From: Macrophomina tecta
Lineage: Eukaryota > Ascomycota > Dothideomycetes > Botryosphaeriales > Botryosphaeriaceae
Assembly: GCA_024180945.1 (NCBI GenBank)
Contig: JAKSGN010000043.1
Location: 2,852,001 to 2,916,000, forward strand
Direction: 5' to 3'
DNA length: 64,000 bases
Part shown: positions 5,036 through 42,809 of the stretch, piece by piece
Layout of the letters: each line of letters begins with the position of its first letter
How positions within the stretch are numbered: the stretch's first letter is position 1
The notes under the pieces: generated by a model
What the model was told of the DNA's origin: nothing
The model's database searches: none
What the model saw: the letters and a program-made list of their open reading frames with translations, nothing else
Program-made: the position numbers and the translations under genes

Positions 5036-6267
5036 ACGACGACGTCTCAAAAGATGACACCCGACTTACCCCTTCGATCCGCATACGTTCGCAGCCGAGA
5101 AGCAACGCATGCACCATTCGGAGCCCTACGACACAGTTGTCAAGCTTCACGAGACTGTCACGCATTAGGCGTGCATTGCATGATTTACGTTAGGATACCA
5201 AGAGAGAAAGCCCGAACCAGAGCCAGAGTGGTTTTGCTATAAGATTTCGGCGTTCTCTGGAAATTAGAGCGTGAAGAGAGCCGTCACTGGCTGTCGCGCT
5301 TTCCATTCACCTGTAGGATTAGTACTCAGACAATACATGATACCACTGTTCAGACCCCCATCTCATACCATGGGCGCACATCCTCAGAAGTGGTGGGATC
5401 ATCGCTTCCCATGTGTTTTTTCATGAGTAGCTCTTTATCAATGGTCAAGTCCTCTACGCTGTCTATGGCTTTTCATCCTGCAAATGGTTGTTGAGTCGGT
5501 CAAAGCCTCTGTTGAGCATCGCACGGCCCGGAGTAAGAATTCGGTACCATTAGGCTGGGCATCCGAATGCACGAAAGTGGTCAAAAGCGTGAACGCACTT
5601 GCATCCAGGCGATCGCTTGTATTTGCCGCTGCTCACGTGCGTTATCGTGCTCATGCAGGAGGCTCAAAATTGGTTTCGCAGCGGAGGGGGTTCGCAACCC
5701 GGTGGCCTACGGAGGCCTCTGGATGCATGTAGTTATTACACACCGTGAAAAGGGGCTGGCTTATGGTCGTGGCATTCCATACAAGGAAACCTGCAAAGTA
5801 TCCAAGCCACCGCCATGCAAGACAAATCCGGGCAGCGCACGGTTGATCGACGTCATCGACGCATTGACACAAGGGCCCCCCAGACCGCGAAGCGCGGATG
5901 GTGTTGATCTGATCTGGCACAGCGCGATGTTGCCGCAGCAACCGACGCCGCGCCGCCCAGCGTCGCGCCCAGCGAAGGTCTACCAGCCACACGTCTAACA
6001 AGAAAAGACGACGCGCAACTGCCCGGGCAAAAGCTCGTCGAAATTTCCGTGCGTGCGTTTGCTTCGCTGTCCGTCCCCTCCTCGCCCCTCTTCTTGATTC
6101 TTCGCTCTCGTTGTTCCAAGTATTTCTTCATTCATTCCCTTTTGCGCGTCCTTTTCTCCGCATTCCACACATCATCACCGATCTCGCACGACCGTCTCAG
6201 CCACGCGGAAAAAAAAGCCTGCCCCCATTCCTGAACGGCAACACTACTCTCGCGACTCAGTCGAGCC
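5036..6267. other. Intergenic region, NMA1 3' side and exgD promoter
   Basis: No convincing gene. The right end (about 6055-6240) is strongly C/T-rich and probably forms the promoter/5' leader of the glucanase gene that starts at 6268. The rest shows only chance ORFs below 145 residues with no family character. Confidence 0.5.
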
Positions 6268-9033
6268 ATGCCCCGCGACTACGACTCGCCCCGGCGCGAC
6301 CGCGACCGCAACTACTCCCGTGACCGGCATCCCGCCAGCGGCGGCGAAGGCTACCGCTCCGACCGCGAACGCCGCCGCCGCCGTCGCGAGAGCCGCGACC
6401 CAGCCGACGACACCCCTCCCCGCCGCGAGCAGCGTGCCCCCCGCCGCCACACGCGCGACCCGGCCAGCGACCGCGAGTACGACACGGACGCGGCGCGGCA
6501 GCAGCAGCAGCAGCAGCAGCAGCAAGAGCGGCGCCGCCACCGCGGGCACCGCGCCACCGACTCGACGGGCGAGCCCATCCTGCGGCAGCCGGAGCGCTCG
6601 TACGACTCGCCGTACCACAGCGGGTCGCCCAGTCCGAGGAAAAAGCACGCCGCGGCGCATCGTGGGCGGAGGGAGAGAGGGAGCTATGGAGGCGGCGGCG
6701 ACAGTTCGCGGTGGACGGGCACGGACACGCCGGCGAGTAGAGACTCTGGGTCGAGCGGGCGGCCGCTGCTGCATGCAGATGCGCTGGCGCAGTTGGATGT
6801 AATGAACTCGAAGAGCGGGTGGAAGGCGAACGCGTACGACGAGGCGTATCTGAAGCGCGTGAGGGAGCAGGAGGCGGCAATGGAGAAGGAGCGGCAGAGG
6901 GAGGAGAGGAGGGAGAGGAGGCGGGAGAAGGAAGCGAGGGTGATGGAGAGGGAAAAGAGGAGGAGGTATGAGGAGGAGATGGGATTTAGGCGGAGTCGGA
7001 ATGTGGATGTAGAGTTGGAGGATGATGAGGATGAGGGGGAGGCGCAGCGCCTGAAGCCTGCGCATCCTCCTGTTGCTGATGACGGGATTAGGGTGAGGGG
7101 CTATGATGACGAGTATCCGGAGCCCTACACGGATGACCCGTATACAGATGACCCTGCGGAGCCGATACGGAGACGGAGGGAATACACGGAGGAGGAGAGG
7201 GAGGAGAGGCGGCGGAGAAGAAAGGAGAGAGCGCTTGCGGCAACTGCGGTTGCAGGAAGGAACAAGAAAAGCCGCGTCGTGAGTGGACCTCTACTGGAAG
7301 AGGGCGGCAAGGAGGATTACGAGTACCGTCTCGCACAGCGCCGCGGCGGTGGCGGTGGTAGCAGCGATGTTTATTACGACGAAGAGCTGAAGAAGAAAAA
7401 GCGAAAGAAGATCTTCATCATCGTCGGAATCATCGTGCTCATTCTCGCCATTGTAATCCCTGTCGCTGTTGTAGTATCAGGGAAAAACAAGGGCAGCGAT
7501 GGGGATACTGCTGCCGCCACTTCGTCGGACTCGAGTAAACCGGACAACAGCAATTTGAGCGGCATATCCGAAGACGATATCCCGGAGTATGCACGAGGCG
7601 GCCTCCTGGACCCCTTCACTTGGTACGATACAGAAGACTTCAACGTCACCTTCACCAACGACACGGTCGGCGGTCTCTCGATTATGGGCCTCAATTCGAC
7701 ATGGGATGACAGTGTCCAGGCCAACGAACATGTCCCGGCTCTGAACAAAGAGTTCAAGTACGGTGAAATGCCTATCCGGGGTGTTAATGTGGGCGGCTGG
7801 CTCAACATTGAACCGTGGATTACGCCCTCTTTCTTTGAGTCCTACAATACCCGCGACGGTGTCATCGACGAATGGACGCTTACGACTAGTATGGGAGGAA
7901 AGGCCAAAGCAAATCTAGAAGAACACTACTCGTCATGGATCACTAAGCAGACCTGGGTGGACATTCGAAACGCGGGCTTCGACCACGTCCGTATTCCGTT
8001 TAACTACTGGGCTGTCACCACGTATGACGGAGACCCATACGTTGCCAAGGTCTCCTGGCGGTATCTTCTACGCGGCATTGAGTATGCCAGGCAGAATGGC
8101 CTCCGAATCAAGTTAGATTTGCACGGCTTGCCTGGTAGTCAAAATGGCTGGAACCACAGCGGAAGACAAGGCGCCATCGGATGGTTAAACGGCACGGACG
8201 GTACGCTAAACGCGCAGCGCAGCATTGAAATCCATGATCAGCTGTCACAGTTCTTCGCTCAGCCACGCTATAAGAACGTTGTTACGTTGTACGGCCTGGT
8301 AAATGAACCCCGCATGGTGGAGCTCAACACGAACGACGTCCTTTCTTGGTACGACGAGGTCATTCCGAAGATTCGCCAGAACAACATCACGGCCATTCTT
8401 GTCTTTGGCGATGGTTTCCTCGGCCTGGACAATTGGCAGGGTAAGCTGCAGAATTACAAAGACCTCCTGCTTGACGTGCACCAGTACGTCATCTTCAACG
8501 TCGATCTGATCAAATTCTCGCACGCGGAGAAGGTCAACTTTGCCTGCAAAGGCTGGACTCAACAGTCGCTGCGGTCCATGAACACCGAGACCGGCTTCGG
8601 TCCAACTATGTGCGGAGAGTGGTCTCAAGCCGACACGGATTGCACCCAGTACCTCAACAATGTCGGCTGGGGTACCCGTTGGGAGGGCACCTACAATACA
8701 GGCAACAGTAGCACTTCCGTCCTCGAGCCCACTTGTCCCACAGACAACAACCCCGTCTGCTCCTGCGAAAACGCCAACGCCGATCCGTCAAACTACAGCG
8801 ACACGTACAAGAAGTTTTTGCTGCACTTCGCGCTCGCCCAGATGTACAGCTTCGAGCAAGGCTGGGGTTGGTTCTACTGGACGTGGAAGACGGAGAAGGC
8901 GGTTCAGTGGAGTTGGGAGAGCGGGATGAAGGCGGGCATTCTGCCCGAGAAGGCGTGGGATCGCAGTGCATTTCAATGCAATACGACTGATATCCCGGAC
9001 TATTCTGGAGAAGGATTGCCGGAGAACTACTGA
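6268..9033 (+). CDS. exgD: Membrane-anchored exo-1,3-beta-glucanase / glucan 1,3-beta-glucosidase D (GH5)
   Basis: Releases glucose from 1,3-beta-glucan ends, acting in cell-wall remodelling at the cell surface. It is a single exon of 921 residues. It is a type II membrane protein: residues 1 to about 375 form a very charged cytosolic domain (Arg/Asp/Glu-rich, with a nine-Gln tract at 6499-6525), followed by a Lys-rich stop and one helix at about residues 382-403 (IFIIVGIIVLILAIV), a short Ser/Thr linker, then the extracellular GH5 domain from about residue 495. GH5 landmarks are GVNVGGWLN, HVRIPFNYW, LHGLPGSQNG, the acid/base Glu680 in GLVNEPRM and the nucleophile Glu784 in CGEWSQ. The length and the helix upstream of the catalytic domain match the ExgD subfamily and not the secreted ExgA type. 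It is convergent with the glucan lyase. Confidence 0.95.
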   Translation: MPRDYDSPRRDRDRNYSRDRHPASGGEGYRSDRERRRRRRESRDPADDTPPRREQRAPRRHTRDPASDREYDTDAARQQQQQQQQQERRRHRGHRATDSTGEPILRQPERSYDSPYHSGSPSPRKKHAAAHRGRRERGSYGGGGDSSRWTGTDTPASRDSGSSGRPLLHADALAQLDVMNSKSGWKANAYDEAYLKRVREQEAAMEKERQREERRERRREKEARVMEREKRRRYEEEMGFRRSRNVDVELEDDEDEGEAQRLKPAHPPVADDGIRVRGYDDEYPEPYTDDPYTDDPAEPIRRRREYTEEEREERRRRRKERALAATAVAGRNKKSRVVSGPLLEEGGKEDYEYRLAQRRGGGGGSSDVYYDEELKKKKRKKIFIIVGIIVLILAIVIPVAVVVSGKNKGSDGDTAAATSSDSSKPDNSNLSGISEDDIPEYARGGLLDPFTWYDTEDFNVTFTNDTVGGLSIMGLNSTWDDSVQANEHVPALNKEFKYGEMPIRGVNVGGWLNIEPWITPSFFESYNTRDGVIDEWTLTTSMGGKAKANLEEHYSSWITKQTWVDIRNAGFDHVRIPFNYWAVTTYDGDPYVAKVSWRYLLRGIEYARQNGLRIKLDLHGLPGSQNGWNHSGRQGAIGWLNGTDGTLNAQRSIEIHDQLSQFFAQPRYKNVVTLYGLVNEPRMVELNTNDVLSWYDEVIPKIRQNNITAILVFGDGFLGLDNWQGKLQNYKDLLLDVHQYVIFNVDLIKFSHAEKVNFACKGWTQQSLRSMNTETGFGPTMCGEWSQADTDCTQYLNNVGWGTRWEGTYNTGNSSTSVLEPTCPTDNNPVCSCENANADPSNYSDTYKKFLLHFALAQMYSFEQGWGWFYWTWKTEKAVQWSWESGMKAGILPEKAWDRSAFQCNTTDIPDYSGEGLPENY
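6499..6525 (+). repeat. CAG microsatellite encoding polyglutamine
   Basis: Eight CAG codons and one CAA encode nine consecutive Gln in the cytosolic N-terminal domain of the GH5 glucanase. The repeat stays in frame and is likely length-polymorphic. Confidence 0.9.
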
Positions 9034-9341: not shown

Positions 9342-12300
9342 TCACTCATACTTGACCTCAACTTCCGCCTCGACGTGCTTCTCCGTGGGCACCCATACCA
9401 TGGACGCCTTCTTTCCGACGTCCTTGATGACCCTGACCCGGTCGTCGTTGGTGCCAGCACGCACCACGCTGACAGAGACCTTGCTCATGTCGGTTTCGGC
9501 CTCGTGCCAGATAACGAGACGGTACTCGTCGCCGACATCTCGCTTGACCTGCGCATCGTCATACTTCTCCGCGTCCTTGGGGTCGAGCAAGCTGCCCTTC
9601 CAGTACGTAAAGAGCTTGATGCGCCTGTGGGTCACCTTGGTGTCGTCCGTGTCGGTGATTACCTGAGAACTCCGTGTCAGTAGTCGTCGTCCCAGGCGCA
9701 CTGAAAGCCCCCCCCACCCCCCACCCAACCCAGGGGAGGGGGTTGTTGGTTCTTACCTGCTCGATATCGACGCGCCGGAAGTTGCTGCGGGCCGCCTTGT
9801 CGCCGTACTCGTTGTTCGGGCGCGCCTGCGCCTCGTCCACCGCGTCTGTCGGCTGCAAGAACAGGTAGGCGTCATCGGGCGCGCTGCTGCGCGAGACGCC
9901 GTCGTCCAGGTACATGGAGTACTTGCTCGGGCCGCGCTGGACAGAATTGTAAGCAAAGAGATAGATGCCTCGGACGGGGCTGCTGAAGCGTCTTTTGATG
10001 AGACTCACCGAGGAGTGGCCCGGGTAGATGTTGATCGTGATGGGGTTGGCGGGCGCCGACGGGAGCTCCGGCCGAGTGCGGTCGGGCACGCAGTCCCGGA
10101 CCTGAATTTGGGGGATGATGGCACCTGGTGGGTGTGAGTGAATGTTTGCGTGTTGGCAGGGCTTGGGGGGAGTACCTTCTCGGATGTACATCGGACAGAC
10201 GTAGGGAAGCTGGCCGTCCTGCGCGGCAATGTGGCAGTCGTAGGATATGTTGGCGCCGCCCTGGACACTAGGCTGCAAAGGCTCGCCGATGCCGTCATCG
10301 TAGTGCGGACGCAGGTTCAAAGGGAACCACGAGTTGGTGGACGGGAAGTAGATCTCGCGCCTCGCCCGCTTTTGTTCCAGCTGCGGGGCCACGAGGATGT
10401 CGTTACGGACCATGTATTGGCTCTTGTTTGCCCATTCGTGCTGGTTAACGGTTAGCGTAGGTGCCAGGAAAGAATGTTTTCATGTCTTTTACCCTCGAGA
10501 AGAGACTGCCATCCAGCGGATCAGTGATGACCAGTGATCTTGCAATGGGCAATCCTGTGATGCTGTTCTCGAACATGGCATCATACAGCAGTTGCAAGAG
10601 GCTGTAGCGGAGGCGGATATAGTATCTGCTGACCGGCAAGACCGACTCGTAGATATAGCGCTCTCCATCCATAACCTCCCTCCAGTGTTCACGGTACCAT
10701 TCGTCATACCTATATGGCTCCTTGTGCGGATTAGCCTCGGAGTAATGCATGGACCGCCGATGTCACTCACCTGAAAGTCCTTCTTCTTCCAGTCAATGCT
10801 CTCCTTGCCAGTATGCTTGGCGCTGTAGTGGTTTCTGCAATAGAGTTAGAATTGCTATGCATTTAGGGAGTTCCCAACTGACCTGAACCAAGGGAGAAGA
10901 CTGTACGCGCAGTACCAGCGGATCAGCAGTTCGGGGTCAGCGAACGCCGTGAGGTCTCCTTCGGGAGGCTCGAATCCACCCACGTCGGCGCCCGCAATGG
11001 TCACTCCTGCCAAGCCGAGCGCGATGACCTGGGCGACGGAGATTTGTAAAAAGTCCCAGGTCGAAGCGTTGTCTCCGGTCCAGAGGCCGGCGTAGCGCTG
11101 AGCGCCGGCGTAGCTGCCCCTGCCGATGATGAAGTTGCGTTTGCCCTTGCGACAGTCGAGATGGTTGAGACCCTTGAAGGTGGCCTTGTGCAGGTTAAAG
11201 CTGTACAGAGACCAGATCTCGATGGCCGCCTTCTGATCGGTCTGATCCGGGTCTCTGACCAGAGCTTTGGTCTCACCAGGCCAACCGTCGGAGTCAAGCA
11301 TGAGACGGAACGGCCATCTGTAATACCGATCAGCTGCGAGGCCGTGTATTTATATGCTTGGGAACTTACGACTTCATGTCTCCGTATCGCTGAGCCATGC
11401 AGGGGGATGTCATGTCCTGCCACACGAACTCAAGCCCAGTGTTGAACAGGTACTCGTACTGCTTGCCCCACCAGTCTCGAGTTCTTCTTTGGTTCAGATT
11501 AGGATAGTACCCAGGACAGCCTTGCTTGTTCCCATAGGAGACGCCACCACGGAAAAGCTGGCCCTGGTCAGCTTTGTTGAAAGACGCGCTAAAGTCATGA
11601 TTGTCATCAGGCTCTTCAGCATCACTGGGCACAAACGGACGCGTGTAGTACATCTGCGAGCCGCCATACTGCATGTAACGTTGGTCGAACCAGTTCGGTG
11701 CAGACGGATCGATGTTGCGCCGATCCAACACGAAGTGGTTGTTGGCGAGGCCATCGTTCAGCGTGGTGTAGTCCGCATCATTATTGGCATTGATGACGGG
11801 AGTGATGTTGGTGCTACAGCGGACGCCTTTCTTGCGCAACTCCAAGAACATCTTCTCAGGCTCCGGGAACTTCCCTTTGTCGATGGTGAAGGTCCTGTAG
11901 TCACGTTGCATGTCGACATCGATATGCATGCCATCTGGGTTTCAGGTAAGCACGCGCCCAATGACGGAATTGAGAAGTCATACCAAGCGGGATGCCGTAA
12001 TCGCGATATTTCTGAACCGCCTGCTCCACTCTCTGCTGATGGTCGTATCCATAGCAGCCTTGGTGATTGCCAAGCACGAAGCGTGGCATCAGCCTTGGCC
12101 GCCCGATGAGCGACGAGTAGCGACGGATCACCTCGCTGATGTCGTTTCCGGCAATGAAGATGCCTTGGAAGCCATTGAAGCGTGTGGCAATGCGAACCTG
12201 AGTGGTATTGGTTTTGCCAAGATCCACGCAAACATGCGAGTAGTTGTCGATAAAGGTCGCCAATTGAGACATGCTGTCATATGCATTAGCACTGGCAAGT

Positions 12301-13381
12301 AATAGAGGTATATCAATGGCTCGTCTCACTATCCCGGATGGCCATTGACTTCGATGAAGTAGGGTTCTATGTACAGTCAGTGTAAAGCACGTTGATGTGA
12401 GTCGAGATGTCTTGCCTGAGTGGTACAGAGGCTCGGCATCCTCAAACGGGCCGCGCCCGTAGACGTTATTGTACCGCATGTTGTCAAAGTCTGTGCACGA
12501 GATTAGCTGTCACGCCATATGTAAGCTCCTGGACACGGGCTTGCTTACTGAAGTAATTCATGAAAGTGTTATCCTTGAATAAATCCTTGCCGCCCTGCTC
12601 GCCGAAGCCCATGAACCTCGCAGGATCGGGCTTCTCAACAGAAAGCACAATGGCACATGGCTCCTTGTCCGAGCCACGAACTTGATACTGTAGAGGCCTC
12701 TTCTTCGTCTTCCAAATGACGGCCTGTCCCGATTCCGCCGGGGCTGTAATGGGAAGGTGACTTTCCTCATCGTCGCGGACATGCATCTTGAGCTTTCCGG
12801 GGGTCTTGATGGTCCTGGTGGCGATGATTCTGAAGGGGTCGCGCTGAATCCAGAGCTGAACTACCGGCTTGCCGTTTCCGTCGACGGATCTGAGAATGTA
12901 GTAGCGCGGGTTGCTGTCGTCGAATTGCACCGACCATGTGATGCCTTCAGCGCGGTCCAATATGTCTATCATGTTGGACAAATTGCCCCTGATGATGGTT
13001 CTCCTGCAAAAATGTCAGCCTTAGCTTCGTGCTGCTGCGCGGAGCAGAGAGTGGTCGGTGGACGGACGTGTTGTAGTCGGTGAAATCATGTCCTTCCTTG
13101 TAGTGTGGATAGAATCTGATGCGCCACACCAAGGGACGCATGAACTGGATCAACATGACGGCGCCAGTGCTAAGTCGAAACACTCGGCCATGGCCGCAAG
13201 CCGGATTGAGCTTTTTCCCGGTGGCATCGAGCTGATCCTTCTCACTGAACGTGACAGAATCCGGCCTGACAGTGCCAGTCAGGAGCTCTCTGTCGAAGAA
13301 CTCATCTGCCGGGATGAAGCGGTATGGATCGCGATGTTTGGGGTGGTTCTCATCCTGGGTTCCGATCGTGGCATCAGGCAT
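9342..13381 (-). CDS. Alpha-1,4-glucan lyase (GH31), 1,5-anhydrofructose-forming
   Basis: Cleaves glucose units from the non-reducing end of starch, glycogen or maltosaccharides by elimination, giving 1,5-anhydro-D-fructose. Thirteen exons: 13381-13068, 13003-12549, 12490-12416, 12366-12330, 12291-11984, 11934-11370, 11317-10883, 10834-10771, 10720-10493, 10440-10176, 10124-10009, 9936-9757 and 9662-9342. They give 1120 residues, close to the 1060-1090 of red-algal and discomycete lyases. The product follows those lyases, not ordinary alpha-glucosidases, along its whole length: MHIDVDMQRDYRTFT, KGVRCSTNITPVI, nucleophile Asp570 in FVWQDMT, RNFIIGRGSYAGA, acid Asp667 in GLWTGDNAS, and RYSLLQLLYD. 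There is no signal peptide, so it is probably cytosolic and acts on glycogen. Intron 3 (12367-12415) is GC-AG. It is divergent from the dehydratase gene that would use its product. Activity as lyase versus hydrolase is inferred from similarity. Confidence 0.88.
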
Positions 13382-14741
13382 ATTGGGCAGGTTCGATGTC
13401 TGATGGGCTCGTGCGAGGAATTCTCAAGACTTCCCTGGGCTTCGGGAAAGAAAATGTGCACTGAGGTACAGCTGCCAGGCTTCGACAGAACAAGAGTCGC
13501 AAAGGTCACAGTATGGATGACAGCCCGTTCAGTGGCTTGGTGGTGAAGCTTGGGTGATTCCGACTGGCTTAAGTAGAAGGAGAGAGCGGGGAGGGGGAGC
13601 GGGACCGGACTTTCCATGCACAGGGCCGGCGAGGAGACCATCGAGGTTGCACAGATGTCATTGGGTATGGAGTCTGGAGTCTGTTCAATAAAGCGGTGCA
13701 TTCCAGTGCAGGGAGGCGGTGAGCAGACGACGCCCGGTGCATGGGTGTGCAGTCGACTGGATGGTGCGTAGTGCAACTTGACTTTTTCAGGTAGAATGAA
13801 AGCAATATGGCGCCTTAGCCGATTCGTACTTGCTGCAAACAGACTGGACGGCCATAGAGGCCGCATGGCCTACTGCCTTCAACCTCATGCCCCGCACAAA
13901 GGCTCCAATCACTGCCACGACGGACGGCTGTGGTGTATTTTTAGCTGGAAAGGGCCCTGCAAGTAAGCGAACGCATACGCCGGAAGCGGCCACCATCGTG
14001 GGGACTGGAGGAGGATTGAGCTTCGCAGGTAAGAGGATCAGGCTGGTGCGTGTTGCACAAGAAGCGCGGTCCCCCGCGCAAGCTGAATCAGAAAAGCGCA
14101 CAGGAAAGATAAGATACGTGGCCCAGAGATCGGATGTGCAGGATCCCGCCAGGCGGTTGCCAAAACCAGTTAACCCCGATGGCGTCCGTCGTTCCATCGC
14201 ACCATCTTGGCCTTGGCCAGCAGACCCCGCACAAGCTCATTTCGAGGGCTGCATGAGCAAATGCATCTGGCTACTGAGTGGAACTGTGGCACACCCGTCA
14301 TGTACGCTCCCGCAGTGCAGAAAACCCCTCAACTCGGCAGGATCCAGGCCGCTCATGAGCCGCCCTGCTGGCTGGCCAGAGGCTCGTATGGGCAATGGCC
14401 CTCCTTGTCAGCTCACTGCGGCCCGTCCCAGATCGCCTCCAGGGGGGCAGGTGTTTAGGGAAAGGGCCTGTATTATTAGCACGCGCCAGGCTACACTGAG
14501 ACTAGGTTGGCCCATTGTACAAGGCCATGGAAGTGTCGCCTCCTTCGGCCAAGCTTTGCAGCAACTCCCGCCGTCTGCGCAGTTCTGGCGGAGCAGCAGT
14601 GCCGGCCAGGGCGCTGGAGGGGGCGATGCGGCACCGACGACATCGCGGTGATGATCTGGACTGCAAGCGAGAGCTGAGCTGCAGGGCGTTGCTCTAAGCA
14701 TGCGCGGTGCTGATCCTGCCGTGTCAGCCAGCCTTGAGCAT
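13382..14741. promoter_or_regulatory. Upstream region of the glucan lyase, left of the transposon
   Basis: About 1.36 kb between the lyase start codon and the transposon target site. No ORF here has recognisable family character (one 195-residue frame overlaps lyase exon 1 on the same strand in another frame). It should hold the lyase promoter. Before transposon insertion it was part of a shared intergenic region of about 1.85 kb with the dehydratase gene. Confidence 0.5.
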
Positions 14742-14743
14742 TA

Positions 14744-14773
14744 CCGCACCCGTGCAAAAGTCAGGGCGCACGG
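14744..14773 (+). repeat. Left terminal inverted repeat of the Tc1-like element
   Basis: 30 bp beginning CCGCACCCGTGC and ending GGGCGCACGG. It is the exact reverse complement of 16025-16054 and is preceded directly by the TA target dinucleotide. Confidence 0.95.
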
Positions 14774-14877
14774 CCAAGGCGCTAATTATCCTGCCACCAA
14801 CACCAATACTTTGGAGTCGTATTATTCAACAAGGAGTTGCTCAAATGCAGTAAGAGTTGATTCTTTATAAAGCTAGG

Positions 14878-15984
14878 CTACCAGCGAGTTTGATAGCCAC
14901 CAGCTTGAATAACATCTACAAGCCGTTGTGGCATACTTTTACAAAGCGCTTTAAGGCTTGGTTTTTCCACCAATGCGTATGCCCTAGGTAACCACTCAGC
15001 TAGTAACGCCTCCACGCGCTCAGGATTCTTCTTAAGCTCAATAAATGGCGCAATCTCTTGAAGCTTCATCTTTAGTGGCCACCAAAGGTATTCCTGGAGG
15101 TTCAGATCAGGCGAGTATGGGGGGTGAGTAATGCACCTAATTTGGTGATCACGCAGCCATTTCTTCACCCGGTTCGCCCGATGAATACCAGCACCATCTT
15201 GTAACCAGTACATACCATAGTCGTAGTTTCTTGGCACCTGTTCCTCCAGTACTTTGATATAGGATTTGGCAGTATAGCCTTGCCTAGGAGAGTCCAAATC
15301 ACGCTCCATAACGTGTAAATCAGACACCCCTAGCTGGCCTGAAAAGCCACCCCATACCATACATCTTGCCTTCTTGCCAAGTGGCCGTGTATTAAGCCGG
15401 CTTTGGTCCCACTTTTGCTGGCCAGGCGTACGGAAAACCCAGCTTGGTGCGTGGCCAGAGCCCTGCTCAACTGAGCACTCATCACCGAACGTAACCCTCA
15501 TCCACCATCTCCAGCTCTTATACCGGTATTTCTTTGCATATTGGTACCGAATGCGGGCATTCGCTTGAGAGATCCAAGGCCGATTCTTTGCACGCCATTT
15601 GGTAATATGGTTCTTGCGTAGAATACGCCTGAGCGTATCTTTATGGATAGATAACTGGAGTTGCTTAATCACCTGGCTGTGCTTAAGTTTTGGGAACCGG
15701 TTAACAAAACGAATAATCTGGCGCTCCGTGCGAAGGCTGACTTTGGGGGGACGGCCAGTACGAGGTGTTAGATCAATCTGGCCAGTCGTATTGTAGTGGT
15801 TGATGCAGCTCCTAATTGCGTGTTCTGAGAAGCGAGTCTCACGGGCAATTTGACGCCCAGATTTACCATCTTGCGATTGTGTAATAACCGAAACTCGTTG
15901 ATCATGTGAAAGCTGATGCCTTTGCCTAGCATTGCCTGAAATTTCGCGTCCAAAGATGCGCTGCATGGTGGTGTAATGAGGCAA
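14878..15984 (-). CDS. Tc1/mariner transposase, DD34E type
   Basis: Cut-and-paste transposase of 368 residues, intact and intronless. It has an N-terminal helix-turn-helix pair (residues about 22-135, with the GRPP linker at 77-80 as in Tc1 and impala proteins), then the DDE catalytic domain. The triad is Asp168 in FGDECS, Asp263 in LQDGAG and Glu298 in the PDLNLQEYLW box, with 34 residues between the last two acids (DD34E, the impala/Tc1 class and not the pogo/Fot1 DDxD class). The start at 15984 lies 40 bases inside the right inverted repeat. It fills most of the element at 14744-16054. All three catalytic acids are present, so the enzyme looks functional. Confidence 0.95.
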   Translation of the reverse strand: MPHYTTMQRIFGREISGNARQRHQLSHDQRVSVITQSQDGKSGRQIARETRFSEHAIRSCINHYNTTGQIDLTPRTGRPPKVSLRTERQIIRFVNRFPKLKHSQVIKQLQLSIHKDTLRRILRKNHITKWRAKNRPWISQANARIRYQYAKKYRYKSWRWWMRVTFGDECSVEQGSGHAPSWVFRTPGQQKWDQSRLNTRPLGKKARCMVWGGFSGQLGVSDLHVMERDLDSPRQGYTAKSYIKVLEEQVPRNYDYGMYWLQDGAGIHRANRVKKWLRDHQIRCITHPPYSPDLNLQEYLWWPLKMKLQEIAPFIELKKNPERVEALLAEWLPRAYALVEKPSLKALCKSMPQRLVDVIQAGGYQTRW

Positions 15985-16024
15985 GGGATGAAGAGGGTAC
16001 GTTGTTGTTTTGACTCGTGCACGT

Positions 16025-16054
16025 CCGTGCGCCCTGACTTTTGCACGGGTGCGG
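16025..16054 (-). repeat. Right terminal inverted repeat of the Tc1-like element
   Basis: 30 bp identical, as reverse complement, to 14744-14773 and followed directly by TA. Together the two repeats define the element's ends to the base. Confidence 0.95.
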
Positions 16055-16056
16055 TA

Positions 16057-16540
16057 GCCCCGCCCGCCAAGTGCGCGTCGCTCCGCATGCAGAGGCCCGG
16101 AGCTGCCGTGGCTGCTTACAGCGCTGCGTCCTCAACACCAAGGTGTGCCTCCTCGCGTCCCTACAGCTATCCCTCCAAGTGGCACTGGTCTATACAGACC
16201 CCGCAATTGGTGCCTCCGCCAGGCCGGAGGCAGTTTAGTCGTTCGTATCCGCGGCATTGCCGGGGTGCCAGGACAACAAAGAAAAGCATGAAAACGGACC
16301 ATTGTGCATGTTAGTTTCACAGCAACGGATTCCCCCGCTTATTAGCCCTCCTGCGCCTGCCCTCGCCTTCACATGCCACAGAGACGGGCCAGATGCGCTG
16401 ATCATCGGCCGATGATGATGCTCGTAGCTGGCTGCCCCAGTTGCCTCATGGCGCTGCTTTCCTAAGTACTTATAGCTGCTGGGGCTTCTAATATGTGCTC
16501 GCTCATCTCCTTCAAGCTTCAGAAGATCAAGTTTCACGCC
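16057..16540. promoter_or_regulatory. Upstream region of the aldos-2-ulose dehydratase gene
   Basis: 484 bases between the transposon end and the dehydratase start codon. No gene is seen. It should contain the proximal promoter. Any more distant elements are now displaced by 1.3 kb by the transposon insertion. Confidence 0.5.
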
Positions 16541-19494
16541 ATGGCCACTCAAGCTACTTCAAATCCAAAGGGCCAGGCTCCCATACTTGAGCCATCTTTC
16601 TCCTCCTCCATCATTGAAGACAAACGCAGCGACGGGTATTGGGTGGAAAAATTCCAGTTCAGCACAGAGGACCATGTCCCTGGAGTCATCACGTCAGTGC
16701 TCCCTTGATCATTGGCTCAACGTCGCTTGGGCTTACATCTGGCGCTTCATAGATCTGGCCTTGTCTCCGGTGTCATCTCCTATCTGGAAAATCCCTTGGC
16801 TGCAGCAGAGTACCGAGGAAAGGACAAGGCTTCTGTGTTGAAAGATGGTAAGAGCGCGTCCGCATTCAGCCCTGGAAGAATACTAAGGGTTTCGGACAGT
16901 TGAGTGGGCCAAGTACGAGCTTGGCAAGTTCGACTCGCCCGTCGCCGTTGTAGCTGTGGACATCACGGGCAACGGTTTGACCGACCTGGTCATCTGCCAT
17001 GACTATGGCCCACACATGCTGCGATGCGACCAGCGCGGCGGCTTTATCACTTGGCTCGAGAACCCAGGCAGAGACGGTCTCAAAAATGGCCATTGGAAAG
17101 AGCGCTTCATCGGCCGGTGGCCGGCCATGCATAGGCTGAAAGCCGGATATTTCACGCAGAAGTAGGTTGCCTCATATGAGCTTGTCCGGGGAGATTATCT
17201 GACCAGGCCCAGGTCATTTGTCGAGATCGTTGCCGCTTCTGTTGTCTATGGCCCTCATGACAAGGCTACTCCTATTCCGATCATTAGGTTCCAGGCGCCG
17301 GAGAAGGTGCTAGAGGCGTAAGTTGTCCGTCTTTGCTGCCTGGCTGATGTTTTTTTTTTTTTTTTTTTTTTTTCTGACGCTTTTCAGAGCCGAATGGCCC
17401 CATGACGTGATTGACGATGAGCATTTCACCGTGATCCATGAGGTTACCCAGAAGAGGTAACACTGCCCATCCCAAGACAGATTCAGACTCATACTAAATT
17501 TCTTCACCAGGTTCGACGGTCCTGACGGACTGGACTCCATGTTGATTGCGTCTAGGGAGGGCCTGACCAGGCTTTACTACAAAGACAGTGTCTGGCAACG
17601 TGACCATATCACCGACGGCGAACCCCGTGAAGCACGTCAGCTACTTAACAGCGAGTTTCCGGGATCAGGCGATCATTGGGGCACTGGTGGATCCGATGCA
17701 GGACGCGTTGGGGCCGACCCATTTGCATATATAGCGACTGTCGAACCCTTCCACGGAAACATCGTCTGTGCTTACACAAAGGTAGACCAGGGAATTCAGA
17801 ACAACAAGTGGCAGAGACACGTACTTGACATTTTCGGGACTCCCGGTCAGCAGCTGAAGTACGGAGACGGTCCGCTGCACTACGTCGTATGCGGCGACTT
17901 TGACGGTAAGCACTGGCACCTGCTGAGCTCTGAGAAAAGCTGCCGTGTCCTAATTAACTTACAGGAGATGGTGATGATGAATTCCTTGTATCGGCCTTCG
18001 GTCCAGTTGAATATGACGACCAGTGGCAACCCATCAAGGTCCGTGATTCAATTTATGCGGTAAGGGGTCACCTGCTGATGATGATTAATAGCCCTCTGGA
18101 GGCTTAGATCCGAACAAAGTAAGCGCTAATGCATTCTCCACTGTACTTCTTCGCTAACACACCTTGGAGGGAATCATGTACTACAAGCCGATTGACCTGA
18201 GGAATGGCATTTTTGCGAAGTGGAAAGTATCGGGAGATTCTTCAGCCCGTCTAGCCATTGGGTATGCTGATTCTCCGGCTTTTATTTCTTTCTCCTTATG
18301 CTTTGAATAACAAGGAGAAACACAGGGATTTCACCGGTACCGGGCGCCTGGACTTTGTGTCCATCAAGTACAACGTCATGAACTACTACGAAGAGCCCTC
18401 GCCCGTCGTCTCTCTGTTCGTCAATGACTTCGCACCGCGAAACAACATTGACTCGCTCCCGCCCATTGTCCCCAGTCTGTGGGGCAACGAGGGCATAATC
18501 TACCTGCGTGATCCTGCATTATACTCAACTAAAGACACGTTGAAGCCAGGTCTGGATGCTGACAGGCACATTCTTCAGCCGGCCCAGCTACCGCTCATCA
18601 GTGTGGCTGGCTTCGATATCAGCGTGGAGAGCTACCCAAGGGGCTACCAAGGCATTGAAATAGCCTACGGTGAGGGCATCAAGGTCATTCACGGATCAAT
18701 TACCCTGCAGAACGAGATGAACGAGACTCGCACGCCTTTCTCCGTGAAGGCATTCACATCAGCCAGCACAGCCTCCCAGGTGGCGTTGACCCAGGGCAAC
18801 GCAGACGACAAGATGGGTGTCATTCTTCTCCGCCTCAAACCTTGCTCTGACGACGCCACGACCGCCTCTTGGCCAAAAACGGAGGACATCCCAGTTCAGA
18901 CACTCCTCGACCTCTCTGGTCAAGGTCTCTCGCTGGCGCCGCTTAAGTTCGTCAAAGTCGAAGAGCTCTCATGGGGCGCGAGCTTCAAAGGCGTGGACTT
19001 CTACAACCTGTCCGGCTTCCACTTCCGCTTCCTGGAGACCAAACAGGCGATCGGACACATCCAGTTCTGGACGGCAGGTAAGCACGAGACCCCCGCCGCC
19101 GTTTGCCGCACATACATTCGGCTAACGCTTCCACCCAGGCACGAATGTCAACTGCGGCGTCCACAACCACAGCCACGATATTTTCGCCGAGATGCATGTG
19201 TCTCTTTCGGCCGGCACGGGCAATGGCGGCATGGGGCGACTGCGGGACAAGTACGCCGAGCTCGCGGAGGCCGAGATAAAGCAGCTGCCCGATGACGCAT
19301 TCGACCGGCTGGTCCTGCAGTCGTTAGAGGAGCACGGCGGCATGTGGGAGCGCGACAGCTATGGCCGGCCCATCAGGCGCCGGGATAGAGCTCTCGCGTA
19401 TCCATGGCACAAGTGGCAGGCTGGCGAGGGTAGTGCTGGAGTCGATGTTTGGATGGCGGTCGAGCTCAATCCGGATTTGTATCCGGAGAAGTGA
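16541..19494 (+). CDS. Aldos-2-ulose dehydratase/isomerase homologue (1,5-anhydrofructose to ascopyrone M/microthecin)
   Basis: Homologue of the Phanerochaete aldos-2-ulose dehydratase, which dehydrates 1,5-anhydrofructose to ascopyrone M and isomerises it to microthecin (it also acts on glucosone). Eleven exons: 16541-16692, 16753-16847, 16900-17161, 17213-17317, 17388-17456, 17511-17905, 17965-18059, 18092-18118, 18170-18261, 18326-19077 and 19139-19494. They give 799 residues. The N-terminal two-thirds is a beta-propeller with Asp-rich metal loops (DITGNGLTD, DFDGDGDDE at 357-365, DFTGTGRLD) and the signature MHRLKAGYFT. The C-terminal part is a cupin with His690, His692, Glu699 and His701 (GVHNHSHDIFAEMHV) as likely metal ligands. 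It stops about 100 residues short of the basidiomycete enzyme, whose lectin-like tail is absent. The start at 16541 has an ideal context (gccATGg); an in-frame ATG at 16493 is the alternative. There is no signal peptide. The neighbouring glucan lyase supplies the expected substrate. Confidence 0.88.
17350..17373 (+). repeat. 24-T homopolymer in intron 4 of the dehydratase gene
   Basis: An uninterrupted T run just upstream of the acceptor at 17387. It acts as an unusually long polypyrimidine tract and is a likely length-polymorphic site. Confidence 0.85.
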
Positions 19495-19945: not shown

Positions 19946-22135
19946 CTAGCACACAGCTATAACATCAACAAGCCAATGCTCGGGAGTTGAAGCAGTATTC
20001 CAGATGTGAACTAGATCAGCTCATGTGTAATCCACGTCCAGGTGACAGCTTCAACTCGAACGACTCTTACAGACGCTCTCCTCCAGTTCCTCCATTTGCC
20101 ACACCCCTTGTCTGTCCCCATCAACGCAATCAACATTCAGAATCTCTCCAGCTTCCACGGAGAACCCCATTTCAGGGTCACCAGTGTTCAAGCTCTCTCC
20201 GGGACAGGTCAGCAGCAGCTTCACGGGAGCCGCGTTCTTGCCACGAGCGCCATCTACGATCTCATACAGCCTTTTCAACGTATAGACCGCATCTTCGGAA
20301 CCTCTGGAGCCCTCTCGCGCCTCGTAGAGCGAAACTCCGTCGATGATGCAGTAGAATATTCTGTCCTTAGGCAGCTGCCGGACCACTTTCTCAAACAAGC
20401 TGCACAAGCACTCCAAATCAAGCTCCCTGAGTCCTTCTCGATCTTCCTCAGTCAGGGAGAGATTCAACGAGTACTCATCCGTCTTAGACTGGTGAGCTAT
20501 CTGACCGAGCAAGCTGGCGATCATGCCGGCGAAGCCAGCTCCTTCGTCAGTGTCGTAGTCTGTGTGCAGACCGCAGAAATAGCTGGCTACGATGGTATCC
20601 TTGGGTATACTGCAGACTCTGACCAGTTCAGAGCAGACAACAGAAAGTGGAGAGAGTAACTCGAGTGAGTCAGAACGGTTGCCATTGATTAGCAGATCGC
20701 GGGATTCGGGGAGAGCCAGCCAGAGTTGAAGCTCCTCTGATTGCACAACCCATGTGGCTTCGTCCAGTGATCGGAGATCGAATGAAGCGTACAGGTCTAT
20801 ACAAGTTTCCAAGTCTTCCTCATATCTTTCTTGTTCAAACTGGAGAAGCTTCAAAAAACGCTTGGTGTCCTTTTTGGAATCAGAGATGCTTTTCTGGCGC
20901 GTACGGTGATGTGTAATGTGACTTGAAGACCCAGGTAGAAGAGGGCGCGCGGCGCCTTCTCGTACTATGTATTGTCAGGAACCGAGACTAGCCACCCAGA
21001 CAACAGCAACTTACCTTGGCCGGTCTTCACGTTGAAGTTCTGGCTGCTGGACAACAGCGCCTGCAAGCATTTTCCTATATCTGCCAGCGGAACACTGCCA
21101 TCCTTGAGCATATTTTCAATCCGTGAATAGCTTGCTTCTGCCCGTTTCAAGCCAGCGGCAATCTCCCGTGTCTGACCCAAAACCTCACTGATACGCTTGT
21201 ACTCGATGATCTTAGCTTCTCTCCGGATCTTTTTGGCAAGTCTCTCGACCTGCTCTTTACTGTTCTGCAAATCCTCTCCATAAGAATCACCTTGCACAGC
21301 CGCTGAGACCATTCTACCTACTTTAGTTAGCAGGGGCCAGAGAATATGGGCAGCAGGAACATACGAGCCGAGCTAACGGTGAGATGCTGCATGATTAGCC
21401 GGAATAGAACGAGGATAGCCTTGCACAACTCGGCCGACTTTTCCTCGAGCTCATCCATCCTGTTTATTTCATATATATCCAAAAAATCTCCGGTGGCTCT
21501 GATATAGTCAGGGACGTCCTGAGCAGCCTCGAAGATTGATTCGCGTACGTCGTGTGATTTGCTGGCAGCCTGCGCAAACTTAAACAATAACCCCTCCGGT
21601 TGCAGCATTATCAAAGCGGTTACTTACTGTGGCCAGCATTGAAAACACACCAGCAATAGTGCCACCGTAGTCGCCCCCGGGGAGAAGGTTGCACCAGTGC
21701 TCCATCGTCTTGCTTCCGTCCCTGATCCTGTGCAGAGCCCACTTGACCTTTCCTTTGACGCCAGTCATTTTGTCGTTTTCATAAAGCTTGACCGCTTCTT
21801 GAACCTGTTTCATCATTCCATTCCACTTCGTTTGACGCACGTCGCTTTTCTCAGCCTTCTTCAACACTTTGGTTTGGTAGTTCTCAATGGCCTGAGCCAG
21901 GGCCTCCTTTTCGATCTCTGCTTCTGCCCAGATTTGCCTCCTGATTATTTCATAAGAGAGCGTCCCGACCACGATAGTAGGTTACTTACCTCCTATTCCC
22001 TTCGGAACCATCGGATATTCCGGCCCAGAGCTGAAGGCCAGCGTCGTGTTGTATAGCATCTCCGAGCACGGTCCTGTTTTCGATGAATGAGACAGCCTGG
22101 TCCCTATTCCTCGCGCTGTGCGCAGCTGTTGTCAT
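19946..22135 (-). CDS. STAND-like fungal protein: DUF7708-type N-terminus plus degenerate NTPase region
   Basis: Member of a large Pezizomycotina group related to NACHT/STAND signalling proteins, thought to act in non-self recognition and cell death; the exact role is unknown. Exons: 22135-21990, 21940-21628, 21569-21365, 21317-21015, 20964-20071 and 20010-19946, giving 641 residues. Residues about 45-250 match the DUF7708-type helical domain (landmark WCNLLPGGDYGGTIAGVFSML). Residues about 300-420 are coiled-coil rich. From about residue 365 comes the remnant NTPase segment: LLINGNRSDSLELLSPLSVVC stands where a P-loop would be, but GxxxxGK[ST] is missing, so ATP binding is doubtful. The last exon encodes a Trp-rich tail (TASTPEHWLVDV). 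Without it the frame ends at 20051. An in-frame upstream ATG at 22276 is possible but adds non-conserved sequence. Confidence 0.7.
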
Positions 22136-42723: not shown

Positions 42724-42808
42724 GCGTCAATAGCTCAGCGGTAGAGCGTAGGATTGCAGTTGAATCTGCAGCTATCCCGAGGTCCCCGGTTCGATCCCGG
42801 GTTGGCGC
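42724..42808 (+). tRNA. tRNA-Cys (anticodon GCA) with a probable intron of about 14 nt
   Basis: 85 nt. The acceptor arm GCGTCAA/TTGGCGC pairs with one wobble. D arm GCTC-AGCGGTA-GAGC contains a good A box, and T arm CCCGG-TTCGATC-CCGGG a good B box. After removing about 14 nt following G37, the anticodon loop would be TTGCAGA and the variable loop AGGTC, giving a 71-nt body typical of tRNA-Cys. The intron contains CTGCA, which can pair with the anticodon region as in eukaryotic pre-tRNAs. A TTTT terminator lies about 15 bases downstream. The odd point is the anticodon stem TAGGA/TCCCG, which has an A-C mismatch and a U-G pair. Discriminator base at 42809. Confidence 0.75.
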
Positions 42809-42809
42809 T

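Follow-up and report, generated by a model that had tools for sequence, protein, structure and literature searches.

In a 64-kb window of the Macrophomina tecta genome (contig JAKSGN010000043.1, positions 2,852,001 to 2,916,000), two intact genes lie head to head, one for a glycoside hydrolase family 31 (GH31) protein of the α-1,4-glucan lyase type and one for a homologue of aldos-2-ulose dehydratase/isomerase (AUDH). Very likely, the pair provides a route from glycogen via 1,5-anhydro-D-fructose and ascopyrone M to microthecin. Genes of the two families are also linked in several other fungi, and in some bacteria AUDH-type genes adjoin lyase-type genes as separate propeller and bicupin proteins. 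Macrophomina is a crop-rot fungus. Enzyme activities of the anhydrofructose route are known from morels, truffles, and red algae, and its purpose is unsettled.

An earlier note on this DNA had proposed a divergent two-gene anhydrofructose pathway. The asparagine described as lyase-specific, the lyase clade, the AUDH domains, the propeller histidine, and the linkage favor it, so that an anhydrofructose pathway coded by two neighboring genes is well supported at the level of sequence; overall, we grade the proposal as partly supported. The order of the genes is as described, with the lyase-type gene on the minus strand (13381..9342) and the AUDH homologue on the plus strand (16541..19494), and the outer coordinates 9342 and 19494 are exactly the final bases of the two stop codons.

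The lyase-type GH31 protein and the AUDH homologue

The lyase-type gene (9342..13381, minus) encodes 1114 amino acids in 13 exons (plus-strand coordinates 13068-13381, 12549-13003, 12416-12490, 12330-12366, 11984-12273, 11370-11934, 10883-11317, 10771-10834, 10493-10720, 10176-10440, 10009-10124, 9757-9936, and 9342-9662). The model is open throughout, without internal stops, and its 12 introns are short (48-94 bp), one of them of the GC-AG type. The product differs from its counterpart in Macrophomina phaseolina MS6 (P0001) by 3 residues over the full length. It contains the GH31 barrel (Pfam E 1.2e-66), and among solved structures it is closest to 2x2h, a glucan lyase from a red alga; NCBIfam yielded α-glucosidase and α-xylosidase models only, far under their cut-offs. 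Both catalytic aspartates are present, the nucleophile D564 (FVWQDMTSP) in exon 11370..11934 (minus) and the acid/base D661 (LWTGDNAS) in exon 10883..11317 (minus). The aspartate pair named earlier stands; its numbering as 570 and 667 gives way to that of the spliced model.

As described in excerpts of PMC12441222, lyases carry an asparagine (N459) where GH31 glycosidases have isoleucine; N459 helps the nucleophile D553 to serve as a base, and the water-activating residues of the glycosidases are missing from the lyases. In alignment with 2x2h, N459 corresponds to N433 of the window protein (CSTNITP, in the same exon as D564). Across a 72-sequence GH31 alignment, asparagine occupies this position in 58 of 61 lyase-type rows, the exceptions being a threonine in L052 and gaps in the fragments L057 and L061. 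The 11 other GH31 rows (4 from bacteria and 7 from the host genome, in which a single frame accounts for two rows) show isoleucine (2), serine (2), methionine, histidine, and tryptophan (1 each), a gap (3), and asparagine (1). Since this last row, OWN_L006, is a fragment confined to the later portion of the barrel, its asparagine is probably a misalignment.

A FastTree phylogeny of 67 sequences, rooted by hand on one glucosidase, recovers a lyase-type clade of 60 (local support 0.937) that includes none of the 7 glucosidase-type rows. Within it, the fungal part comprises 16 sequences (0.985), among them the Morchella vulgaris protein P0095 (Q9UVZ1), and the bacterial group has a local support of 0.516. 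P0095, which we take to be a characterized lyase, is 41% identical to the window protein at 95% coverage. The window protein shares the GH31 barrel, both catalytic aspartates, and the N459 asparagine with known α-1,4-glucan lyases (EC 4.2.2.13; M. vulgaris Q9UVZ1 and red-algal 2x2h). Unlike these, it is a Dothideomycete member that adjoins an AUDH gene, and its lyase activity is predicted.

The AUDH homologue (16541..19494, plus) consists of 792 amino acids encoded by 11 exons (16541-16692, 16753-16847, 16900-17161, 17213-17317, 17388-17456, 17511-17905, 17965-18038, 18092-18118, 18170-18261, 18326-19077, and 19139-19494) and differs from the MS6 protein P0121 by 5 residues over the full length. 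Comparison with P0121 revealed the 27-nt exon 18092-18118 and guided its placement; a 783-aa model without this exon was replaced accordingly, as was a provisional 799-aa model with seven wrong residues. A run of 24 T lies inside an intron of the gene (17350-17373). The Pfam, NCBIfam, solved-structure, and homologue searches were run with the 799-aa model. In a single chain, Pfam detects AUDH_Cupin (PF18637, 1.4e-112) and AUDH_beta_propeller (PF22301, 5.5e-74); NCBIfam gave no match. The window gene is the only AUDH gene in the 54.1-Mb host genome.

The sole solved relative found is the AUDH of Phanerochaete chrysosporium (PDB 4a7k), with which the window protein has both domains, the propeller histidine, and the cupin His/Glu motif in common. 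His160 (PAMHRLKAG, exon 16900..17161, plus) aligns with His155 of that enzyme, and an equivalent histidine is found in all 22 aligned propellers from fungi, rotifers, and bacteria. Claesson and colleagues reportedly proposed His155 as catalytic in 2012, and the enzyme is said to hold two zinc sites far apart. The last exon (19139..19494, plus) encodes the C-terminal cupin motif GVHNHSHDIFAEMH (residues 681-694) together with EEHGGMW and AYPWHKW; the HNH..E..H and YPWH motifs align with 4a7k and presumably contain the metal-binding residues. At 792 residues, the window protein is smaller than the P. chrysosporium enzyme (900), and the alignment stops at residue 731 of 4a7k, so that the C-terminal portion of 4a7k has no counterpart in the window protein.

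The earlier note had described both proteins as lacking signal peptides. This agrees with their non-hydrophobic starts, a crude test made with Kyte-Doolittle window means, in which the 11-residue maxima near the N-termini are 0.37 and 1.07 for the two proteins.

Linkage in other fungi and in bacteria

To gauge linkage in fungi, we compared 61 named fungal AUDH rows (from 99 matches; rotifers, bacteria, and unnamed metagenome rows left out) with the 95 named fungal rows among the best 120 of 549 lyase matches, counting a pair as linked if an AUDH row and a lyase row of one organism had longest contigs of exactly equal length. At least 20 of the 61 AUDH rows share such a contig, a lower bound because the lyase rows are the best 120 of 549. 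These come from Macrophomina, Diplodia, Lepidopterella, Fusarium (2), Lasiosphaeris, Colletotrichum (2), Tricladium (2), Dactylonectria, a member of the Xylariomycetidae, Cercophora, Thelonectria, Monosporascus, Jackrogersella, Kalaharituber, Escovopsis, Tuber, and Heterodermia, with Dothideomycetes, Sordariomycetes, Leotiomycetes, Lecanoromycetes, and Pezizomycetes among the classes. Eight of the shared contigs measure 40-150 kb, and some are megabases long. Moreover, the locus tags of the pair are consecutive in DL765, OQA88, and Q9195 and next but one in SLS58. The fungal pairing is not chance.

In bacteria, AUDH-type genes stand beside the lyase in 29 of 46 lyase-type loci, as a stand-alone propeller (13), a stand-alone bicupin (28), or both (12), and beside none of the 5 glucosidase-type control loci. 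Propeller, bicupin, and lyase genes lie together on one strand in L020, L021, L022, L034, L038, L042, L050, L054, L058, and L060, and in part in L025 and L065, and this same-strand neighborhood occurs in bacteria of several groups. All three homologous parts are present, differing from the fungal arrangement in that the fused AUDH is replaced by two separate proteins. These fungal and bacterial linkages also answer the doubt, raised in the earlier note, that the two genes might never be adjacent in relatives.

A search of 40 lyase-bearing bacterial genomes found the propeller family in 13, and in 11 of these the match adjoins the lyase on the same contig. In L028, the lyase occupies a 6.9-kb contig and the propeller another contig. 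In L025, a C-terminal propeller piece stands beside the lyase at a contig end and the family match lies on another contig; we read the two pieces as one gene cut by the assembly. Among 242 cyanobacterial genomes of one class, centered on G006, which was chosen for its lyase, the propeller turned up in 2 at E 0.001, and lyase and cupin in 3 each, at E 1e-150 and E 1e-10, respectively. G016 and G035 hold all three families and G006 lyase and cupin, adjacent on one strand. The three cupins are themselves rows of the query alignment, and the informative part of this count is their absence from the other 239 genomes. A Foldseek search with the bacterial cupin did not place AUDH among the best 50 rows listed; VIA-align over Foldseek's 1000 best chains ranked AUDH at the top.

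In seven cyanobacterial loci, a SnoaL-like gene shares the strand of the lyase and lies downstream of it (L027 13302-13685, L029 13192-13575, L041 13218-13754, L043 13362-13907, L044 13353-13751, L052 13559-14104, and L057 12430-12711; Pfam was run on four of these genes). Six of the seven also have the cupin, and none has the propeller. That the SnoaL-like protein acts as a stand-in in cupin-only loci is a guess.

Some AUDH-type proteins have other architectures. P0217 and P0218 from Nocardiopsis are propeller-only, and P0300 and P0306 combine an AUDH-type cupin with a DUF6209 domain (PF19714) in 377 amino acids. Bdelloid rotifers (Rotaria, Adineta) possess two-domain AUDH homologues (P0186-P0188, P0190, P0193-P0196, P0198-P0200, and P0205-P0207); Adineta P0199 shares 55% identity with the Paenibacillus propeller of L020 (409 columns) and 38% with the window-type AUDH P0121 (704 columns). 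If the fungal protein indeed unites two separate steps, the rotifer AUDH would likewise be a fused form.

The region between the genes and the rest of the window

The common upstream region extends over 3159 bp from start codon to start codon (13382..16540). Here the earlier description, right about the gene pair, needed correction, as the region carries a 1.3-kb Tc1/mariner element (14742..16056, minus) with perfect 32-bp inverted repeats and TA at each end. Its transposase frame is open (stop-to-stop 14878-16131, 417 codons) and matches the Pfam families HTH_Tnp_Tc3_2 and DDE_3. The genome contains at least 40 full-length copies at 99-100% identity, the window copy included, a minimum as 40 of 107 candidates were scored. 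This many near-identical copies indicates a young insertion.

Next to the lyase gene, a 932-codon frame (6235-9033) combines a GH5 (Cellulase) domain with a charged N-terminal region and a segment that resembles a membrane span. Past the AUDH gene and on the opposite strand to it, a reading frame with an NPHP3_N domain occupies 20051-20974. Further, a tRNA gene is located at 42724-42809.

Proposed pathway and competing explanations

In the proposed pathway, the lyase-type GH31 protein would release 1,5-anhydro-D-fructose from the ends of glycogen in an elimination reaction. The propeller part of AUDH would dehydrate this sugar to ascopyrone M, and the cupin part would isomerize ascopyrone M to microthecin; this allotment of dehydration to the propeller and isomerization to the cupin is our assumption. 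Both proteins would be cytosolic, and both genes would be used jointly. As propeller and bicupin are separate genes beside the bacterial lyases, the fungal AUDH is best read as a fused two-protein step. The split form fits the two separate metal sites that AUDH is said to have, with dehydration at the propeller and isomerization at the cupin. That the families occur together across kingdoms is as expected if one feeds the other. Whether they form an old, mobile module rather than a fungal or algal oddity, as a three-gene operon in bacteria and as lyase plus fused AUDH in fungi, we regard as evenly balanced; in the cyanobacterial loci without a propeller, another protein, perhaps the SnoaL-like one, would then dehydrate the sugar, or the cupin would perform a different step.

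Several observations weigh against the proposal. Contigs of megabase or chromosome size prove little about adjacency when two genes have them in common. In Elsinoe australis, Camillea tinctor, and Choiromyces venosus, the contigs that carry the two families differ in length. Thelonectria and Jackrogersella possess one additional AUDH row each, on a different contig. For many AUDH rows, those of Aspergillus and Penicillium included, the best 120 lyase matches contain none from the same organism. M. tecta itself has a second lyase-type GH31 gene (G000:C2:1725590-1729143) with no AUDH beside it. Among the 46 bacterial lyase-type loci, 17 have neither propeller nor cupin adjoining, several of these ending at a contig edge, and 16 have a cupin and no propeller. 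In 27 of the 40 lyase-bearing genomes there is no propeller match, and the lyase is therefore not always accompanied by a whole AUDH. Finally, the Tc1/mariner insertion may have altered the shared promoter.

Alternatively, the GH31 protein could be an ordinary α-glucosidase that releases glucose, with "lyase" a family label and the AUDH-like neighbor acting elsewhere. GH31 members indeed have the barrel and the catalytic aspartate pair in common, and databases list many close relatives as "alpha-glucosidase". However, the window protein has the lyase asparagine where 10 of the 11 other GH31 rows show isoleucine, methionine, histidine, tryptophan, serine, or a gap, it is 41% identical to M. vulgaris P0095 at 95% coverage, and AUDH-type genes adjoin lyase-type bacterial loci and none of the 5 glucosidase-type ones; we consider this explanation improbable. 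More improbable still is that the AUDH homologue uses glucosone from pyranose 2-oxidase to make cortalcerone, the lyase being incidental. To judge from the title, Koths et al, 1992 (as cited in PMC11650716), produced cortalcerone from glucose by pyranose 2-oxidase and AUDH. Against it, AUDH-type genes adjoin lyases in both fungi and bacteria, and no pyranose 2-oxidase over the TIGR02462 cut-off was found in the genome (best 32 versus 544.9 bits) by a six-frame, exon-by-exon search in which an intron-split gene would score low. Chance neighborhood, for which the more than 3 kb between the start codons, the intervening transposon, and the separate contigs in three fungi might speak, is already hard to hold in view of common contigs across five classes of Pezizomycotina and the same-strand neighborhood in several bacterial groups, and we give it next to no weight.

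Harder to set aside, though still doubtful, is that the same pathway serves another purpose and turns glycogen into a private carbon store or signal instead of an antimicrobial. Stress may be a further purpose; the earlier note put forward, as a possibility, a defense triggered by stress or wounding. Excerpts of PMC12441222 suggest that the use of 1,5-anhydrofructose could deny carbon to competitors; both proteins lack a hydrophobic start, and microthecin is not a necessary product of cupin-only bacterial loci. On the other hand, ascopyrone and microthecin are called antibacterial in the same excerpts. Also, no catabolic neighbor was found among the four families examined (lyase, cupin, propeller, SnoaL-like) of the 8 common to at least 4 bacterial loci, a weak argument. 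Nor is AUDH, singled out in the earlier note, the only user of the sugar: according to PMC12441222, 1,5-anhydrofructose is also reduced to 1,5-anhydroglucitol.

The route from glycogen to microthecin is itself already known. The anhydrofructose pathway of the Pezizales (Yu et al, 2004; Yu, 2008; as cited in PMC12441222) relies on these two kinds of enzyme, acting in the order proposed here; to judge from the titles, it was described from purified enzymes, whereas here it appears as a repeated gene neighborhood in which the bacterial AUDH is split in two. On the gene linkage and on the split bacterial form, no paper was seen among the best matches in one open-licence full-text library, which is no proof of absence. 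The gene pair in Pezizomycotina and the bacterial operon provide a genetic handle, since gene deletions can be combined with product measurements. In the split form, each step of the bifunctional enzyme would fall to its own protein and could be assayed alone. Neighboring genes in fungi and split genes in some bacteria make the likely pathway directly testable.
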